This document shows positions 2,662 through 23,663 of a DNA stretch of 23,672 nucleotides, piece after piece. The notes below the pieces were generated by a model that made no database searches, had not been told where the DNA came from, and saw only the letters and a list, made by a program, of their open reading frames with translations. The position numbers and the translations under genes were made by a program. The DNA comes from a virus. The number at the start of each line of letters is the position of its first letter. Position 1 is the first letter of the stretch. The DNA lies in the IMG/VR virus record IMGVR_UViG_3300027833_000222, positions 1 to 23,672 of that record; one strand, given 5' to 3'.

Positions 2662-4977
2662 ATGGCTGATGCTTTTGCAAGTGATTTTGATGAAACAGAT
2701 GTCTTTGACGACACTTCTCTTAGCCTAGCGCAAGACAGTTTTGCTGTTGAAGGCTCTGCTAGACCAACTGGACTTACTTTAGCAGAAGCAGGTTCTTTTG
2801 AGAATGCTGACCTTGCTTTAGCAGGTTTAAGCGACTTTGTTAAACAACAACAAGGACAAGGTAGAGCTTTAGGTTTAGCGGCTGTAGAATCTGGCGATTA
2901 CAGTGATATTAAAAATAAAGATATTAACAAACTTCGTAGAGACGATAAGAATGTTACAGACTACTACACAGAGTCTGTAGACAACAACATTATTGACTTT
3001 GTTAATGATAACAATATTCCTTTGTATAAAGATGTTAACGGTCGAAGAGTTTACCTTAACACAGGAACAGAAGGTTCGTTAACAGGTATAGCCAAAGAAG
3101 GTAGTGATGTTACTTATGAGACTTACGGCCCAGTAGGTACTTACTCTTCTATAGCTGTGCCTAAAGCTAGAGGAATTGTTGCAGCCTTTCCTCCCGAACT
3201 AAGAACAGCTCTTGCTCTTATGACTGGCGGTATGTCAGAAGCAGTCCTAGCAGCAGCAGCAGGATTAGCTGGAGATACTTTACACACAGAAGACTGGCTA
3301 AACTTAGCAAAAGGCGCTATTGGTCTTTATCAGCAAAATGCACAAGTACCTGCTGAAACAGGAACAGGCCCGTCTAGGTCTTTAGAGGAAATGGCACAAG
3401 ACCCCAATAGTGGAGTTATGTCGGCCACAGGTGTTGGAGGCGCTACAGATGCTGTAGACACTGCCTCTACTGTTGCTTCCCGCTCAACAGCAATAGGAGA
3501 TGCAGCAGTCAACGCTGCTTTTGATTCAGGCAAGTTAATTGAAAATGTTTCAACCGCTGCTGATGCTCAATCAGTTGCTGACGCAGCTATTAATACTTAT
3601 AGAAACTCAGCACAGTATTTTCTTGACATTGCTAAAGACAATGCTGGCCTGCTTAAAGACATTGGCAGTGCAGCTATTTCATCACTAGGCGACGACGAGG
3701 AGTTAGTTCCTTCAGGTCTTCTTACTGGAGGCTCTACAGTACCTCAAGATACAGGATCAGGTGACTTAGACAAAGAACCAATCATAAACGAGTTTGAGTT
3801 TGACCCTGAGATAGATCGTCCTACGCTGCCTGAAGAAACTAAAGACCCTGCTGAAGCTGCTGCTTCTGCTGCTCAAGCTGCTGCCTCTGCTGCTGAAGCT
3901 GCTGGCGCTAGTGCTGCTGCTTCTGCTGCTGCTGCTCAAGCTGCTTACGATGCTGTTATGGGTGGAGCAGATGCCGCCGCCGCTGCTGAAGTAGGTGCTC
4001 AAGCCGCTGCTGATTTTAAAGACGAAGATGGTGATGATAAGTTTGACGACGACAACAGAGCAGAAGGAGAGTCTTTTGGATACGACAAGGATGCTTTTTT
4101 TGATAGCTTTGGTGATTTTTGGTTAGAAGCTGATTTTAATACTTTAGACGCTAACAACGATGGCATTGTTACTGCTGAAGAAATGGACGAATACGAAAGA
4201 AGTAAAGAAGTAGTAGAAGTAAAAGAATGTCCTATAGGGTTCGTAAGAGATGCTACTGGAGCTTGTGTACTTATTAAAATAGATGAAGTAGAAGTAGAAG
4301 ACCCTGTAGAGTGTCCAACAGGGCAAGAAAGAAACTCTGAAGGTGTCTGTGTTGCTATTACTGAAGACCCTGTAGTTGGTAAGTGTCCTGTAGGGTTTGC
4401 TAAAAACTCTGAAGGTGTTTGTGTACCTGAAGAAGTAGCGGAAGTACCTGAAGTAGAAGTAGAAGACCCTGTAGTTGGTAAGTGTCCTGAAGGGCAAGAA
4501 AAGAACGCTGAAGGTGTCTGTGTTGCTATTACTGAAGACCCTGTAGTTGGTAAGTGTCCTGTAGGGCAAGAAAAGAACGCTGAAGGTGTCTGTGTTGCTA
4601 TTACTGACGGGACTGGTGACTGCCCAGCGGGACAAAGCAAGAACGCTGAAGGTGTCTGTGTTGATGATGGCAATGGCAACGGCAATGGCAACGGCAATGG
4701 CAACGGCAATGGCAACGGCAATGGCAACGGCAATGGCGGTGGAGGAGGCAGTGGTTCTGGTATAGGTTATAGAGGAGGGTCACAAACTGAGTCTCTTTTT
4801 GCAGACTTCTTAAAGCTACAGAAGCCACAAGATACACAAGAACTTTTGCAATATGCACAACAAGCTCCAGAACAAGGCATGATGTCACCTAGCGCACGTA
4901 ATGACATTTTACTTGAATTTATACAAGCTAATCCCAATGCTGGAATGTTAGCAAACTTACAAAGGAATAGAAGATGA
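2662..4977 (+). CDS. Large repeat-rich structural protein with Ala-rich helix, EF-hand loop and Cys repeats
   Basis: A 771-residue protein with a clear modular layout but no family I can name. Residues 1-390 are mixed and moderately acidic. Residues about 397-453 are an Ala-rich helical repeat (AAASAAQAAASAAEAA type). Residues 496-507 read DANNDGIVTAEE, a canonical EF-hand calcium loop. Residues 523-667 hold six copies of CPxGxxxNxEGxCV. Residues 670-691 are an alternating Gly-Asn run, followed by a Gly/Ser-rich linker and a helical Gln-rich end. It lies directly before tail tubular protein A in the structural operon, so a virion protein (tail, fibre or ejection component) is likely. The ATG at 2662 follows AGAGA. 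It overlaps the next gene by ATGA. The paired cysteines suggest disulfide-stabilised loops outside the cytoplasm. Confidence 0.7.
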   Translation: MADAFASDFDETDVFDDTSLSLAQDSFAVEGSARPTGLTLAEAGSFENADLALAGLSDFVKQQQGQGRALGLAAVESGDYSDIKNKDINKLRRDDKNVTDYYTESVDNNIIDFVNDNNIPLYKDVNGRRVYLNTGTEGSLTGIAKEGSDVTYETYGPVGTYSSIAVPKARGIVAAFPPELRTALALMTGGMSEAVLAAAAGLAGDTLHTEDWLNLAKGAIGLYQQNAQVPAETGTGPSRSLEEMAQDPNSGVMSATGVGGATDAVDTASTVASRSTAIGDAAVNAAFDSGKLIENVSTAADAQSVADAAINTYRNSAQYFLDIAKDNAGLLKDIGSAAISSLGDDEELVPSGLLTGGSTVPQDTGSGDLDKEPIINEFEFDPEIDRPTLPEETKDPAEAAASAAQAAASAAEAAGASAAASAAAAQAAYDAVMGGADAAAAAEVGAQAAADFKDEDGDDKFDDDNRAEGESFGYDKDAFFDSFGDFWLEADFNTLDANNDGIVTAEEMDEYERSKEVVEVKECPIGFVRDATGACVLIKIDEVEVEDPVECPTGQERNSEGVCVAITEDPVVGKCPVGFAKNSEGVCVPEEVAEVPEVEVEDPVVGKCPEGQEKNAEGVCVAITEDPVVGKCPVGQEKNAEGVCVAITDGTGDCPAGQSKNAEGVCVDDGNGNGNGNGNGNGNGNGNGNGNGGGGGSGSGIGYRGGSQTESLFADFLKLQKPQDTQELLQYAQQAPEQGMMSPSARNDILLEFIQANPNAGMLANLQRNRR
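4228..4662 (+). repeat. Six-copy coding repeat CPxGxxxNxEGxCV
   Basis: Six copies of a Cys-Pro-x-Gly...Gly-x-Cys-Val unit, each with two cysteines about 12 residues apart, are spaced by acidic linkers such as EDPVVGK. Copies four and five are almost identical at DNA level (around 4480-4545 and 4545-4605), which shows recent tandem duplication. The first copy (from 4228) is the most diverged. Confidence 0.9.
4669..4740 (+). repeat. 12-bp minisatellite GGCAATGGCAAC encoding (Gly-Asn)n
   Basis: Five perfect head-to-tail copies of GGCAATGGCAAC lie at 4669-4728, followed by a degenerate sixth unit. They encode an alternating Gly-Asn linker. Such arrays change length by slippage without breaking the frame. 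A related array lies in the tail tubular protein B gene at 6056-6109. Confidence 0.95.
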
Positions 4978-5606
4978 CTTATCTAGAACTAGTCAATAAA
5001 GTATTAGTAAGACTTCGTGAGAATGAAGTTGCTACTGTTAACGAGAACGCATACTCTAAGCTTATAGGCGCTTACGTTAGTGACGCTAAGAGATCAGTAG
5101 AGAACGCATGGGACTGGACAGGACTACGTAACACGCTAACAGTAGCTACACAAGCTAACGTCTTTAACTATGTTCTTACAGACGAAGACAACACTATTAA
5201 GATTCTAGATGCAACTAACGACAGTCAGAACTCTTTTTTAAGTTACAAGACTTCACGTTGGTTTGACAATGCCTTCTTAGACTTTGAGAGTGTTCCTAAA
5301 GGCACTACGTCCTTCTACAGCTTTAACGGCATCAACGGTGTTGACTTATACCCTATTCCTGACAAAGAGTACACACTGCGCTTTAACGTAGTTCTGAGGA
5401 CTTCAGACTTTGTTAACGACACTGACAGATTGGACGTACCTTATAACCCTGTTATTAGACTAGCGTTAGCGTTAGCTGCTAGAGAAAGAGGAGAAACTGG
5501 AGGCACAAGCGCAGCAGAGTTGTTTGGACTTGCTGACTCTTCACTGGCAGATGCCATTGCTATGGACGCTGCTTTACATCCTGAAGAAACTATCTGGTAC
5601 TCATAA
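4974..5606 (+). CDS. Tail tubular protein A (T7 gp11-like)
   Basis: A 210-residue protein matching the T7 gp11 tail tubular A (gatekeeper) family in length and layout. It has an N-terminal helical segment (MTYLELVNKVLVRLRE), a conserved AKRSVENAWDW segment around residues 38-48, a beta-rich middle, and a C-terminal helical region with RLALALAARERGE. In T7 this protein forms a ring below the portal and connects it to the tail nozzle. It starts with an ATGA overlap with the preceding gene, with AAGGAA upstream, and ends in a TAATG overlap with tail tubular protein B. That pairing is the usual order in T7-like phages and strengthens the call. Confidence 0.85.
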   Translation: MTYLELVNKVLVRLRENEVATVNENAYSKLIGAYVSDAKRSVENAWDWTGLRNTLTVATQANVFNYVLTDEDNTIKILDATNDSQNSFLSYKTSRWFDNAFLDFESVPKGTTSFYSFNGINGVDLYPIPDKEYTLRFNVVLRTSDFVNDTDRLDVPYNPVIRLALALAARERGETGGTSAAELFGLADSSLADAIAMDAALHPEETIWYS

Positions 5607-7210
5607 TGGCTCAACAATTACAGAATTTAACAATAGCAGCTCCAGGATTTTTCGGTATTAACACACAGGATTCTCCTATTGGTATAGACCCTGCATACGC
5701 CTCTATTGCTGATAATTGTGTTATTGATCAGTTTGGTAGAGTAGGTGCTCGACAGGGTTATCAGCTAGTGACTACTAACGGCTCTAGTGTCTTAGGAACT
5801 AGCCGTGGCATTACTGGTATGCTTGAGTACATTAGCAGAGCAAACGTCACAACAGTCTTCTCAGTAGGTAATTTAAAGATATTCACAGGCACTACTACTT
5901 TAGTAGAGTGTACGTTACCCGCTGGCTACACTATTACTGACGACGACTGGAGGATTATATCTTTTAATGATGATGTTTATTTCTTTCAAGACGGACATCC
6001 TCCTCTTAAAACAAAAGATACAGACGTAACAGAGTTAGAACTATTGACAACTACTGGCAATGGCAACGGCAATGGCAATGGCGGTGGCGGTGGCAACGGC
6101 GGTGGTGGATTTGTACCTCCTCCAGCTAACGAAGCACTGGCAGCTTATGGTCGTTTATGGGCTGCTGATCTACCTACTAACAAGTACACTGTCTACTGGA
6201 GTGACCTACTAAACGGTAGTGATTGGCATGGCAACGCTTCAGGTTCTTTAGATACAACACTTGTGTGGCCTAACGGTTATGATGAGATTGTTGCTCTAGC
6301 AGAACACAACAACTTTCTGTTGATTTTTGGTAAGAAAAATATTCTTGTTTATTCAGGCGCAGATAACCCTAACGATCCTGCCTTCCAGCTACATGACACC
6401 ATTGAAGGCACAGGTTGTATTGCTAGAGACTCTATACAGTCTACTGGTACAGACTTGCTGTTCTTGTCTACTCGTGGTCTTATGTCTTTAGGTAGACTAA
6501 TACAAGAGAAGTCACTGCCTCTTAGAGACGTTAGCAGGAACGTAAGAACTGACCTGTTGAACTTTGTAGCAATTGAAGAACAATCTAATGGGCATAGAGA
6601 GTCTATTAAGTCTATCTACAGCCCTATAGACGCTTTCTACCTGTTAACACTACCTGATAGTAAGGTTGTCTACTGCTTTGACGTTAGACAGCCGTTAGAG
6701 AACGGAGCCTTCCGTGTTACCACTTGGACAAGCCTAGACCCTGTAGCCTTCTGTATGTTTGCTGACGATACCTTACAGATGGGTCACAGTGAGGGCATTG
6801 TTAAGTACAAGGGTTACTTAGACGGTACAGACACTTACCAGTTGCGTTACTTTAGCAACCCGTCAGACTTTGGCAACGCTTCTAATCTAAAGTTTCTCAA
6901 GAAGTTTAACTTAACTATTATTGGTGCTTACGCTACAGACATTACTCTTAACTGGGGTTATGACTACACGGAGGCTTACACTAAGCAAGTTCTTAGCTTT
7001 GGAACTACAAACGCTATTGCAGAGTACGGTATAGCTAAATATGGCATAGCAGAATACTCTGGTGGCGTTGACGCTTTAATTAACACACCTTCTGTCAACA
7101 CTGGCGGTAGCGGCACTGTTGTCACTATTGGTCTAGAAGCTCAGGTAAACGGAACATCTCTTTCAATACAAAAAATTGACATACACGCCTTAATGGGGAG
7201 ACTTATCTAA
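5606..7210 (+). CDS. Tail tubular protein B (T7 gp12-like nozzle)
   Basis: A 534-residue protein directly after tail tubular A. The N-terminus (a GINTQDSPIGIDP segment, then a DQFGRVGARQGY segment) is characteristic of the gp12-like nozzle family, and later GRLWAADL, a VYWSD segment and LLIFGKKNILVYSG are typical beta-propeller strands. Six copies of gp12 close the DNA channel in T7. The protein is smaller than T7 gp12 (794 aa) but within the range of marine relatives. Residues 151-168 are a Gly-Asn/Gly-rich insertion just before the conserved GRLW segment, encoded by a repeat like that in the 771-aa protein. The start overlaps the previous stop (TAATG) and lacks a strong ribosome binding site, so translation is probably coupled. 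Confidence 0.85.
   Translation: MAQQLQNLTIAAPGFFGINTQDSPIGIDPAYASIADNCVIDQFGRVGARQGYQLVTTNGSSVLGTSRGITGMLEYISRANVTTVFSVGNLKIFTGTTTLVECTLPAGYTITDDDWRIISFNDDVYFFQDGHPPLKTKDTDVTELELLTTTGNGNGNGNGGGGGNGGGGFVPPPANEALAAYGRLWAADLPTNKYTVYWSDLLNGSDWHGNASGSLDTTLVWPNGYDEIVALAEHNNFLLIFGKKNILVYSGADNPNDPAFQLHDTIEGTGCIARDSIQSTGTDLLFLSTRGLMSLGRLIQEKSLPLRDVSRNVRTDLLNFVAIEEQSNGHRESIKSIYSPIDAFYLLTLPDSKVVYCFDVRQPLENGAFRVTTWTSLDPVAFCMFADDTLQMGHSEGIVKYKGYLDGTDTYQLRYFSNPSDFGNASNLKFLKKFNLTIIGAYATDITLNWGYDYTEAYTKQVLSFGTTNAIAEYGIAKYGIAEYSGGVDALINTPSVNTGGSGTVVTIGLEAQVNGTSLSIQKIDIHALMGRLI
6056..6109 (+). repeat. Gly-Asn/Gly-rich coding repeat in the nozzle gene
   Basis: A degenerate run of GGCAAT, GGCAAC and GGCGGT hexamers encodes Gly-Asn then Gly-rich residues 151-168 of tail tubular protein B. 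Its first 20 bases match the minisatellite at 4669-4740. It probably forms an exposed flexible loop. Confidence 0.9.
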
Positions 7211-9965: not shown

Positions 9966-11920
9966 TGAGTGGAATAGCTATTGATGATGCTTCTTTTGAT
10001 GCAGTAAACCAGTCTCTTTTTACTAATCCTAATTTAGAACTAGAGACAGCAGAAGAAGCAAAACGAGTGCGTCTAGAAGGTTTATCTGGCAGCAGAGAGA
10101 CTCCTGTAGAAAGGATTGCTAATTTTGCTTCTGATCCTGTAGGAAATATAATAGAACCTACCTCTGCTGCTTTAACTGACGTAGGTTCGGGCGTTATAAC
10201 TGGGTTAGCAGGCGTGGCTCAACTGTCTTCGACAGTTCAAGAGACCACAAGGCAAGGTTTAGATTGGCTTGTTGGAGAAGACTATACGGACGAAGAAAAA
10301 GAAGCTTTTATACAAGACAATATAACTGACCCAGAGATAGCTAGACAAGCAGCTTATTCTAAGTATCGTCAAAAAGTAAGTCAAAAAAAGCCTTCACCTA
10401 TTGCTGGGTTTATTGGAGAGGTTTTTCCTACCTTAGTTGCTAATCCCAAAAAAGCAGCTCAAGGGTTTTTTGGTAAAGTTCTTCAATCTACGTTTTACGG
10501 CGGTCTTTCAGGAAGCATGGAATTTGTAGAAGGAGGAGTTAACGAAAGGAACATGAATATATTAATAGGAAATGCTTCTGGCGGTATTCTTGATATTCTT
10601 CAACAAGCAGGTAGAAGAGGTTGGCAGATAGCGAAAGAAGCTTACAAACCATCTTTAAGAGACTTTGCTGCTACAGATCAAGTAGACATAGCGCAGAAAC
10701 TAAGCACAGAAGAAACCGTTAAGGTTATAAAAGCTGCTAAAGAATTAGGAATAACTGTAACTCCAGCAGAAGCTTCTGGTGACACTTTATTAATACACGG
10801 GCAGAATACTTTAAATGTCAACGAGGCTAGTAGAGAACAGTTAGCAGAGTTTTTAGCAAAAAGAAACGACTCCCTGACAGAAAACATACTAGCTCTTCAA
10901 AGAGTAGCGGATAAAGACTTACAATACGCAGGGGTGACTTTTATTCCTTCTGCTAGTCAAACAGCTAAAGCTCCTTTTGTTACTAAAAGTGACGAGATAA
11001 AATATAAAAAAACAAGGGAAAATGTATTAAGACAGACGTTAGAGCCTTCAGAGATGAAAGCGGTGTTTAACGCTCATCCCATGCTGGCGAAATTAAACGA
11101 CGACTATCAAAAAGCTTTAAGAAAACCAGCATCAAAAAGAACTAAAGATGATGTTTTAAAGATAACGGCTTTTAAAAATCTACACGATAGCGTAGGAATA
11201 GAAGGCTCAATGCCTATAAACAATGTTGGTTATTTAGACATGTTAATAAATAATTTAGACGACTTGTTGGAAAACACGGTAGCTGGTTCTAGTAAAGAGG
11301 CTAGGGATCAGGCTTTGTTACTGGCACAAAGGAAAGCCTTGTCTGGTGTTTTAAAAAGAAATGTCGAAGGCTATGAGGCTTTAAAAAATCTACAGCAGAG
11401 AAGGATAGCAGTTAATAACTTACAAACTGCTGTTGATACTTCTGTAGTCAGGGAAGAAGACTACGCAGAAGCTTTTTACAACAATGTACTAAAAAACAAA
11501 AAGAAAAGAGAAGAGCTTTTAAGACAATTATCTACAGACCCACAAGCTCAGAAAAAAGTAAACGACTTAACTACAGTAATGTCTCATATTTTTTCAGACG
11601 CTAACGTAGCTAAACTTGTTAGAAGGTCTGAGCCAGATGTCTTAGCTCAAGGTACAGGTGGTTTAGGGAGACTTGGTACTGCCGCTTTGAAACTTAGAGA
11701 ACTTGTTAGAAACGATGCTGGTCTTATAAATGTTATTACTAACCCTCAATGGACTTCGGACATTTCTAAGTTAAAAGGAAGAACTGCTGACGAGACATTA
11801 CAAAATTTAGCTGCTTTTCTATCAAGAGTTGTAAACACTTCTGATAAAATAGAGCAAGGTTTAAGTATAAAAGAACAGACTAGAGAAGAACTAGTAAATA
11901 GAGTAATACAACAGCAATAA
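9965..11920 (+). CDS. Putative internal virion/ejection protein (651 aa), last late gene
   Basis: A 651-residue protein closing the late operon. Residues about 55-90 contain a Gly/Val/Ala-rich stretch (DVGSGVITGLAGVAQL), and a second Gly/Phe-rich segment lies around 145-190 (GFIGEVFPTLVA and following). These are weakly hydrophobic and could touch membranes. The rest is charged and helical, with long Lys/Glu/Leu-rich regions from about 225 to the end. No lytic transglycosylase motif like that of T7 gp16 is visible. It starts with a TAATG overlap and is followed by a hairpin terminator. An ejection role is inferred from position, size and composition. Confidence 0.6.
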   Translation: MSGIAIDDASFDAVNQSLFTNPNLELETAEEAKRVRLEGLSGSRETPVERIANFASDPVGNIIEPTSAALTDVGSGVITGLAGVAQLSSTVQETTRQGLDWLVGEDYTDEEKEAFIQDNITDPEIARQAAYSKYRQKVSQKKPSPIAGFIGEVFPTLVANPKKAAQGFFGKVLQSTFYGGLSGSMEFVEGGVNERNMNILIGNASGGILDILQQAGRRGWQIAKEAYKPSLRDFAATDQVDIAQKLSTEETVKVIKAAKELGITVTPAEASGDTLLIHGQNTLNVNEASREQLAEFLAKRNDSLTENILALQRVADKDLQYAGVTFIPSASQTAKAPFVTKSDEIKYKKTRENVLRQTLEPSEMKAVFNAHPMLAKLNDDYQKALRKPASKRTKDDVLKITAFKNLHDSVGIEGSMPINNVGYLDMLINNLDDLLENTVAGSSKEARDQALLLAQRKALSGVLKRNVEGYEALKNLQQRRIAVNNLQTAVDTSVVREEDYAEAFYNNVLKNKKKREELLRQLSTDPQAQKKVNDLTTVMSHIFSDANVAKLVRRSEPDVLAQGTGGLGRLGTAALKLRELVRNDAGLINVITNPQWTSDISKLKGRTADETLQNLAAFLSRVVNTSDKIEQGLSIKEQTREELVNRVIQQQ

Positions 11921-22062: not shown

Positions 22063-22092
22063 ACTTTACCGAATGCAAGCGCATTGTGTCAA
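22063..22092 (-). promoter_or_regulatory. Sigma70-like promoter for the replication operon
   Basis: Minus-strand perfect TTGACA (22087-22092) and TAAAGT (22063-22068) with an 18-base spacer. The expected start is near 22056, about 30 bases before the ATG at 22026, leaving a short leader that holds the GA-rich ribosome binding site. Confidence 0.7.
22072..22085. promoter_or_regulatory. Operator-like dyad AATGC-N4-GCATT within the promoter spacer
   Basis: Perfect 5-bp arms AATGC and GCATT separated by four bases lie exactly between the -35 and -10 elements. A protein bound here would block polymerase. The binding protein is unknown; the two HTH-like proteins encoded downstream are candidates. 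Confidence 0.45.
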
Positions 22093-22248
22093 ATGTTTAT
22101 TTCGTTATATTCTTTATAGTCTCTCTAGTACGGGAAACAGGTTTAAAGGCTCTGTATTGCGTTCTAACGGCGTTTATAGCATTCTAGGTGCTAGGGTACT
22201 GCTTAGGCGTTAACGGCCTTAAATCGCCATTGTTAACTGCTAGGCATT
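22093..22248. other. Non-coding stretch between early terminator and replication promoter
   Basis: No supported gene. It contains two GTTAAC palindromes (22210 and 22232 areas) and a GGCG...CGCC dyad (22206-22228), AT-rich in part. The rightward frame across it lacks a ribosome binding site and family similarity, and I treat it as chance. Confidence 0.5.
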
Positions 22249-22267
22249 AAAAAAGCCTCCAAAGGCT
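22249..22267 (-). terminator. Rho-independent terminator of the early operon
   Basis: On the minus strand AGCCT-TTGG-AGGCT is followed by a run of T. The stem is only 5 bp but is G/C-containing and directly followed by U-rich RNA. It lies after the last early gene (ends 22333) and before the next promoter (22092). Confidence 0.7.
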
Positions 22268-22332
22268 AAAAGGCTCGTATTCGGCACGGTGAGCCAGCCC
22301 GACTTCAAAGGGAAAAGGAGACCCTCGCCTAG
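22268..22332 (-). other. Structured non-coding 3' region of the early transcript
   Basis: Between the last early gene and the terminator, the minus strand can fold GGCTC...GAGCC (22272-22295) and a small GGG...CCC hairpin (about 22309-22323). No tRNA features or known riboswitch pattern are visible. It may be a stabilising 3' UTR or a small RNA. Confidence 0.35.
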
Positions 22333-22584
22333 CTATCCACGCGCTGCGTATCCTTTAACGGTGCAACAATCAGTAGCTAATCCAAATGCAGGGTAGCGCT
22401 TAAAATTGCCATCTTCTAAGCTCTCTATATCTACTTCCCAGTGAGTAACCTTGGCAAAATGCTCCAAAAATGTGTCGAGGGTTATTATGTCATCCCAATG
22501 TAAACTTGAATAATCTTCATTGATTAAGGCACTGAGCGCCCATTTTGGGAAATCATCGACTGTTAAAACGTGCTCAATACTCAT
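22333..22584 (-). CDS. Early hypothetical protein (83 aa)
   Basis: An 83-residue acidic protein, the last gene of the early operon. It is rich in Trp, Asp and His (FPKWALSALINEDYSSLHWDD) and has two adjacent cysteines near the C-terminus (ATDCCTVKGY). No family is recognised. The start overlaps the upstream stop (ATGA), so translation is coupled. Position in the earliest operon suggests a host-takeover or counter-defence role, by analogy with other phages only. Confidence 0.65.
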   Translation of the reverse strand: MSIEHVLTVDDFPKWALSALINEDYSSLHWDDIITLDTFLEHFAKVTHWEVDIESLEDGNFKRYPAFGLATDCCTVKGYAARG

Positions 22585-22742
22585 TCTATCACCTCGTCTA
22601 TGTATTGCTGGTGCGCGTCTCTACCTATGTCTATCAGGGTTCGTGCGTGCCTTACATCTAGACCGTGATGCTCCGCTATAGTTTCTACTGTCAGGTAGTT
22701 ATTGACCCAATCAAGATAAAATTCTCTTAGCTGCTTATTCAT
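22581..22742 (-). CDS. Small early protein with WVNNYLTVE motif (53 aa)
   Basis: A 53-residue frame, ATG 22742 to TGA 22581. FYLDWVNNYLTVETIAEHHG, then LDVRHARTLIDIGR, matches a very common small phage/bacterial pattern (WVNNFLTVExFAExxxL...A..LI..GR) that looks helix-turn-helix-like; its function is unknown to me. The start overlaps the upstream stop as TAATG, and the end overlaps the next start as ATGA, which supports it as a real gene. Confidence 0.75.
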   Translation of the reverse strand: MNKQLREFYLDWVNNYLTVETIAEHHGLDVRHARTLIDIGRDAHQQYIDEVIE

Positions 22743-22927
22743 TATGCCACCTCATTATTATTGTAGTTAATAGCTATACAGGTCTGGAAGTCATCATGCG
22801 GGTAAGAGCCTACATTGAATGTCTGACCTATAAAGTAGCTCTCAGCGTCTAGCTGCGTTGCCTTCGCACTGTGCGATGTCCTGTAATTATGCTTGGGATC
22901 GTCAAAAATGACTTGAACGCTATTCAT
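22742..22927 (-). CDS. Early hypothetical protein (61 aa)
   Basis: A 61-residue protein beginning MNSVQVIFDDPKHNYRTS, with Asn/Tyr/His-rich sequence and a probable beta-strand content. No membrane segment and no known family. It starts by TAATG overlap with the upstream gene and ends by TAATG overlap with the next, in the middle of the early operon. Confidence 0.65.
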   Translation of the reverse strand: MNSVQVIFDDPKHNYRTSHSAKATQLDAESYFIGQTFNVGSYPHDDFQTCIAINYNNNEVA

Positions 22928-23127
22928 TAGATTAACTCTTCAGTTGCATTGTTTAATAAATCCATAGCGCACTCTAGCGCCTCGTGGTCTGTTTCAATAC
23001 CATAGCAGGTGAAGCAGTGATAATCTACCCATTGGCCGCCTATTGGCGTTTGTAGGTTAAACGTGCCGCCCTCGTTCCACTCTATGCGTATATGTTCGCC
23101 GTTGTGCTCTATTTCCCAATGTTTCAT
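22927..23127 (-). CDS. Early hypothetical protein (66 aa)
   Basis: A 66-residue acidic protein. The start is ATG 23127, preceded by a near-perfect GGAGGG seven bases upstream; the frame is open five codons further only from a TTG. The sequence (HWEIEHNGEHIRIEWNEGG) predicts beta hairpins followed by a C-terminal helix (HEALECAMDLLNN), and contains three cysteines. No family is recognised. It ends in a TAATG overlap with the next early gene. Confidence 0.7.
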   Translation of the reverse strand: MKHWEIEHNGEHIRIEWNEGGTFNLQTPIGGQWVDYHCFTCYGIETDHEALECAMDLLNNATEELI

Positions 23128-23128
23128 T

Positions 23129-23323
23129 TTACAACCCTCCAAATAATACTAAGTTAACGCCACCAAGGGCCAAGACTGCTAAGCCTACCATAAGAGCTGT
23201 TAGACTTACCCAACTCATCAGTTCGCGGCGCTTATTCATACGCTGCCATTCTTTATGACGTAGATACTGATAGGCCAATTCTATTTCTGCCGCTCTCAAT
23301 TGCTGCTCTGTTTGTTTGCTCAT
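23129..23323 (-). CDS. Small early membrane protein (64 aa)
   Basis: A 64-residue protein. The start is ATG 23323, which overlaps the upstream stop (TAATG); a longer frame reaches 23371 but has no ribosome binding site and overlaps the upstream gene. Residues 1-35 are charged, helical and basic near the membrane (NKRREL), and residues 37-62 form one hydrophobic span (MSWVSLTALMVGLAVLALGG). It should sit in the inner membrane with its N-terminus in the cytoplasm. Early membrane proteins of phages can block superinfection or alter host membrane proteins; this is inference. Confidence 0.7.
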   Translation of the reverse strand: MSKQTEQQLRAAEIELAYQYLRHKEWQRMNKRRELMSWVSLTALMVGLAVLALGGVNLVLFGGL

Positions 23324-23463
23324 TATATTAAAGCCTCTATAAGTGCCATAGTTGCTGGCGGTATAGCGCAAGCCGCCATAGGATGCTTGCTAATATGTTT
23401 GATTATACGCGCCGCTGTAGCTGCGTTGGGATTAGCGTTGAAAGCTTCTAATAGTTTAATCAT
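23323..23463 (-). CDS. First early gene, small protein (46 aa)
   Basis: A 46-residue frame from ATG 23463 to TAA at 23323-23325, too short for usual cut-offs. AAGGG lies ten bases before ATG, and a consensus promoter lies about 30 bases upstream. The sequence (LLEAFNANPNAATAARIIKH, then HISKHPMAACAIPP) is helical and short. No family is recognised. Its TAATG overlap with the next gene and position right after the promoter support it. Confidence 0.7.
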   Translation of the reverse strand: MIKLLEAFNANPNAATAARIIKHISKHPMAACAIPPATMALIEALI

Positions 23464-23496: not shown

Positions 23497-23524
23497 ATTA
23501 TATAGACTTGGTATTTTGTGTCAA
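23497..23524 (-). promoter_or_regulatory. Consensus sigma70-like early promoter
   Basis: Minus-strand TTGACA (23519-23524) and TATAAT (23497-23502) are both perfect, with a 16-base spacer. The expected start is near 23490, about 27 bases before the first early ATG (23463). It is the best promoter in the window and needs no phage polymerase. Confidence 0.85.
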
Positions 23525-23647
23525 ACTTATAGCCATTTATTTAACTTATAATGATGTTGACTACTATTGATCTGGTGAATGCCTACTATCTATTATGCGC
23601 GCCCGCGTGCGAATACTATACAGCTATAGCATTGTCAATATATTGGG

Positions 23648-23663
23648 GTGACTAGGTGGTCAC
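23648..23663. promoter_or_regulatory. Operator-like dyad GTGAC-N6-GTCAC upstream of the early promoter
   Basis: Perfect 5-bp inverted arms separated by six bases lie about 125 bases upstream of the early promoter. A TTGACA on the minus strand (23633-23638) lies beside it, without a good -10. The stretch 23525-23672 otherwise holds no supported gene; a GC-rich run (around 23596-23611) is present. Confidence 0.35.

Follow-up and report, generated by a model that had tools for sequence, protein, structure and literature searches.

The window, the whole 23,672-nt stretch of DNA analysed, is an IMG/VR contig of a marine tailed phage in which late genes occupy the plus strand up to position 11920 and replication genes run convergently on the minus strand. 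Preceding the primase-helicase and DNA polymerase genes, the minus-strand region from 23463 to 22333 contains six ORFs (genes A to F) that start with ATG, measure 46, 64, 66, 61, 53 and 83 codons and follow one another with no real gaps. Stop and start codons are joined as TAATG at the A/B, C/D and D/E boundaries and as ATGA at E/F; genes B and C are separated by a single nucleotide (TAA-A-ATG). All six starts are preceded by a purine-rich ribosome site, the strongest being that of gene C (GGAGGG).

A chain of six linked ORFs was never obtained in 1000 dinucleotide shuffles, where linked ATG ORFs of at least 40 codons were counted and the longest chain comprised two. Values of dN/dS, which are based on few changes, lie between 0.04 and 0.18 for genes B, C, E and F and at 0.43 for gene D. 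Together, the shuffling and selection tests rule out chance ORFs as the source of the chain; judging from these sequence comparisons, genes B to F are under purifying selection. The initial annotation had described six tiny coupled genes here, and ORF calling and shuffling bear out their coordinates, strand, number and sizes.

Signals flanking the operon

A TTGACA-16-TATAAT promoter lies ahead of gene A on the minus strand (23497 to 23524). It is the sole 12/12 match in the window, where the perfect TTGACA-N16..18-TATAAT arrangement is expected 0.01 times. Its two hexamers are identical in the related loci L223 and L083, with 6 of the 16 spacer bases differing, which confirms the consensus promoter claimed at first reading. 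Further upstream, a non-coding leader (23525 to 23653, minus strand) shows few differences from L223 and L083 and is better conserved than coding genes in the nearest relative; it belongs to no Rfam family and has no excess DNA folding. Rfam and tRNA searches returned no matches. Beyond the promoter, L223 carries divergent TerS-, M15-type peptidase-, TerL- and portal-like genes (identified by reading, not by family search), and with these packaging genes across the promoter, the operon is the unit that opens the replication side.

An intrinsic terminator follows the operon (22253 to 22276, minus strand). The terminator scan alone performs at chance level (3 found versus 2.5 expected); support comes from relatives, since a hairpin with a T run occurs at this position in six of them (L223, L178, L009, L003, L008 and L004). 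Their stems include the compensatory pairs AGCCTAGT/GCTAGGCT, GCCCAGT/GCTGGGC, GCCAAGT/GCTTGGC and TACCCAG/CTGGGTA. The terminator that had been proposed after the operon is thus upheld by its conserved position and by compensatory stem changes. Next comes a candidate second promoter, TTGACA-18-TAAAGT (22063 to 22092, minus strand; 10/12 match), for the unit leading into the replication genes; a 9/12 match occupies the same place in L223, and the intergenic stretch between terminator and candidate promoter is conserved. This stretch includes AACCTGTTTCCCGTA (22129 to 22143, minus strand), of which 20 of 224 loci have one identical copy each. We considered a repeated element here and rejected it, as neither the window nor any locus carrying the sequence has more than one copy. 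Elsewhere in the window, a 771-aa late protein (2662 to 4977) combines repeats resembling CPVGxxKNSEGVCV with a (GN)n tract, and a GN tract of similar type occurs in a 534-aa protein encoded at 5606 to 7210.

Properties of the six genes

Gene A (46 aa, 23323 to 23463) occupies the first slot and is the weakest of the six calls. Being the shortest and having no relative in isolate phages, it might be taken for an untranslated leader of gene B. We consider this unlikely in view of its codon usage (z = 3.0) and TAATG coupling to B, to which its ribosome site can be added; moreover, the same slot in L223 holds another short ORF, one with a divergent relative in L168.

Gene B (23129 to 23323) encodes 64 aa from its ATG; a mechanical ORF finder gives an 80-aa form starting at TTG. 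The product has a charged N-terminal helix and a hydrophobic segment with a maximum 19-residue hydropathy of 2.37, in agreement with the single membrane protein announced by the initial annotation. Relatives are found in L223, L179, L182 and L183, with dN/dS of 0.10 to 0.18. PADLOC, whose library covers defence and not anti-defence genes, gave only two weak matches, both for gene B. A small hydrophobic protein could serve lysis, as a holin or antiholin, and the M15-type peptidase gene of L223 lies nearby, on the other strand. Such a role is extremely unlikely: no holin match was obtained for B in Pfam, PHROG or NCBIfam, and its unit is oriented opposite to the packaging and peptidase genes. 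We give lysis little weight because a holin is located elsewhere, in the late region, where the protein at 2277 to 2660 scores 61.4 bits with GTA_holin_3TM (cut-off 24.8). As a small membrane protein, B could also point to a unit whose main task is to shield the infected cell against other phages, with B as the effector of superinfection exclusion; in L009, the position just before gene C is taken by a small, unrelated protein that likewise has a hydrophobic segment. This, too, is very unlikely for the unit as a whole, as only one of the six products is a membrane protein and nothing ties the other genes to exclusion.

Gene D (61 aa, 22742 to 22927) has three relatives in viral contigs and a distant one among the small hypothetical genes of Vibrio phage vB_CoeS_P1 (41% identity, E = 5e-7). 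Gene E (53 aa, 22581 to 22742) matches phrog_26669 (E = 1.7e-10) and phrog_4907 (E = 2.4e-7), neither of which has a function annotated in PHROGs; its relatives occur in Erwinia, Salmonella, Aeromonas and Vibrio phages. In an alignment of 33 members, YLDWVNNY stands out as a near-invariant motif with an HTH-like segment behind it, and matches to Pfam HTH_36 and HTH_ParB fall below cut-off. Its dN/dS lies between 0.04 and 0.11. No literature was found for the YLDWVNNYLT motif. A match of the E profile to a "CAP REPEAT" entry of the PDB was discarded, as it spans 21 residues with no stretch passing alone. In L223, two diverged copies of E (L223:6186-6344 and L223:6628-6789) reside in one operon.

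Gene F (83 aa, 22333 to 22584) scores 41.5 bits with PF21977 (DUF6926), above the curated cut-off of 27, and has dN/dS of 0.09 to 0.18. None of the records in the isolate-phage collection matches it. A search for DUF6926 gave no signal in ten phage contigs or in 14 control genomes and thus carries no information, and a literature search found no paper on this domain. The predicted structure of F was set aside (pLDDT 59). The assignments of F to DUF6926 and of E to phrog_26669 and phrog_4907 overturn the earlier statement that five of the six genes lack a known family.

Gene C (66 aa, 22927 to 23127) belongs to no Pfam, PHROG or NCBIfam family, yet it is encoded in 129 other viral-contig stretches, including phages without this DNA polymerase. 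No match was found among 50,697 isolate-phage records, and no relative was confirmed when 84,980 species genomes of bacteria and archaea were scanned with two short patterns. An alignment of 39 sequences contains 19 invariant columns; invariant residues include R14, W17, N18, F23, N24, Q26, G31, W33, D35 to Y42, E49 and A50. The protein is predicted to adopt a beta-beta-beta-beta-alpha fold (model pLDDT 87), for which PDB and BFVD contain nothing at E <= 0.001. Likenesses to the inhibitory subunit of methane monooxygenase (Z 5.9) and to T7 gp1.2 (Z 3.7) were set aside because these scores are inside the range of chance arrangements.

In contigs of 55-60 kb that lack this polymerase, gene C lies near terminase and amidoligase genes. 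Since C need not be early in such surroundings, this calls for caution over an early role. In a second set of phages, the gene immediately after C encodes a conserved protein of 98 aa (METITLELPxxWATALFYDDTSGF...), which is weakly like F/DUF6926 (L108:2105-2401, L116:4804-5106, L121:6189-6485, L129:6189-6485 and L132:2898-3194). Comparison of F with the protein that follows C in other phages (E = 0.0016, probability 16%) is only suggestive of a relationship at the sequence level; C may be repeatedly paired with DUF6926-like genes.

Gene exchange among related loci

The backbone DNA of the window is about 93% identical to that of L223 and L224 over 3.2 kb and to that of L179 over 2.1 kb, and against this background the gene content of the operon changes. 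In L223, the first ORF (57 aa) is unrelated, and two short genes plus the second copy of E replace F. L179 keeps B and E and carries a different 56-aa gene and a phrog_5643 member in place of the window's C and D. Blocks of homology end no more than about 30 nt from an ORF border. The comparison of gene content in related phages that had been suggested as a check therefore reveals swapping of genes within a near-identical backbone. By DNA similarity, the region has no match among isolate phages.

We surveyed 50 loci, with heuristic gene calls and some near-duplicates among the loci, and counted 111 gene families, 61 of them found once, with a median length of 66 aa. The order of the slots is strict in this sample: C precedes phrog_5643 in 20 cases to 0, phrog_5643 precedes E in 16 to 0 and C precedes E in 7 to 0. 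The cassettes of relatives also hold GP88, MazG, HNH, sigma-region-4 and HTH genes, and in L004 the last slot before the terminator contains a gene of a DNA-methyltransferase family (phrog_757). Ordered-slot turnover of this sort is a clear illustration from nature of the way in which early accessory modules may evolve; the comparison also separates the exchangeable genes from C and E, which differ very little between different marine phages.

Several small proteins with unrelated N-terminal parts, most of them encoded at or close to the last slot, share a C-terminal tail close to WxRLRx[DE]YPAIER (L003:99-311, L008:821-976, L009:3334-3549, L092:667-927, L103:1040-1282, L173:1115-1315 and the L178 ORF ending at 615). 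The DNA encoding the tail is identical over about 21 bases in L009 and L178, a pattern that would suit a recombination anchor ahead of the terminator.

Probable role and relation to known systems

Taken together, these sequence data are best read as describing an exchangeable accessory operon placed at the head of a marine phage's replication side. This kind of region is already known; its individual members are mostly undescribed. The operon offers small phage proteins in a compact set that lends itself to testing. As the main role of the unit we favour, with some reserve, host modulation or counter-defence. The initial annotation had made the same proposal. What stood is a real operon in the usual position for host interaction (the first leftward unit, a host-type promoter, fast change in content); takeover or counter-defence itself is plausible rather than proven. 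It draws on position, on turnover and on the one methyltransferase-family gene in a relative's slot. Searches of Pfam, PHROG and NCBIfam recognised no anti-defence family in the window, and none of the six genes has a tested homologue. As a base rate for toxicity, overexpression of about 25% of the 94 genes of mycobacteriophage Hammy inhibits growth (PMC10700055), which makes inhibition of growth by itself weak evidence.

We infer from position and promoter type that the unit is early. With a sigma-70 consensus promoter and no phage RNA polymerase recognised in this incomplete contig, host RNA polymerase would transcribe it soon after DNA entry. The products would be small binding proteins that modulate functions of the host or weaken its defences: B would act at the inner membrane, E may bind DNA, and C and F could bind host or phage proteins. 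The fast turnover of content would then reflect differing hosts and their defences.

Alternatively, the unit could tune the phage's own early programme (transcription through E, nucleotide pools, replication) and leave host defences and shut-off alone. The operon adjoins the replication module, E resembles a small DNA-binding protein in sequence, and MazG, HNH, sigma-region-4 and HTH genes are found in the cassettes of relatives; regulation or nucleotide metabolism might be served, since MazG, HNH, GP88 and sigma-like genes fill other slots. However, phages normally retain their replication functions, whereas the members of this unit vary between phages with near-identical replication genes, and we regard this alternative as possible but rather doubtful.

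Within the host-modulation or counter-defence reading, gene C lends itself to a bolder proposal, namely that it founds an undescribed family of phage inhibitors directed at one conserved host target, carried with DUF6926-like partners in an ordered-slot cassette whose genes are traded one by one at start/stop overlaps. A single conserved host target would explain why the RIEWN...WVDYHCFTCYGI core is near-invariant across marine phages with different replication genes. This proposal is speculative and more likely wrong than right by a good measure; were it correct, the target would probably be a conserved component, and finding it would raise the interest of the family.

Lytic tailed phages have early accessory-gene regions, of which the early region of T7 is the type. 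The present operon resembles it in having small packed genes placed first behind a host-type promoter, before the replication genes, and in its high turnover. It differs in that none of the genes here is recognisable as an early gene with a known function, that slot order is unusually strict among the surveyed loci and that early timing is deduced. By DNA polymerase, the nearest isolated phages are the Pelagibacter phages HTVC103P, HTVC104P and HTVC115P (49-50% identity), from which the window is set apart by genes C and F, unmatched in the whole isolate collection. The HMO-2011-type polymerase carries a partial DnaJ domain insertion (PMC9038755). Reading the window's 560-aa polymerase by eye revealed no CXXCXGXG repeats, and the window, whose polymerase thus appears to lack the DnaJ insertion, is probably not of the HMO-2011 type proper. 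Outside phages, the leading region of plasmids carries anti-defence islands (PMC11541004). Here, in contrast, we are dealing with a phage, an ordinary double-strand promoter and a window without a recognised anti-defence gene; the likeness lies in what would be a first-expressed accessory segment, made up of uncharacterised small genes and methyltransferases.
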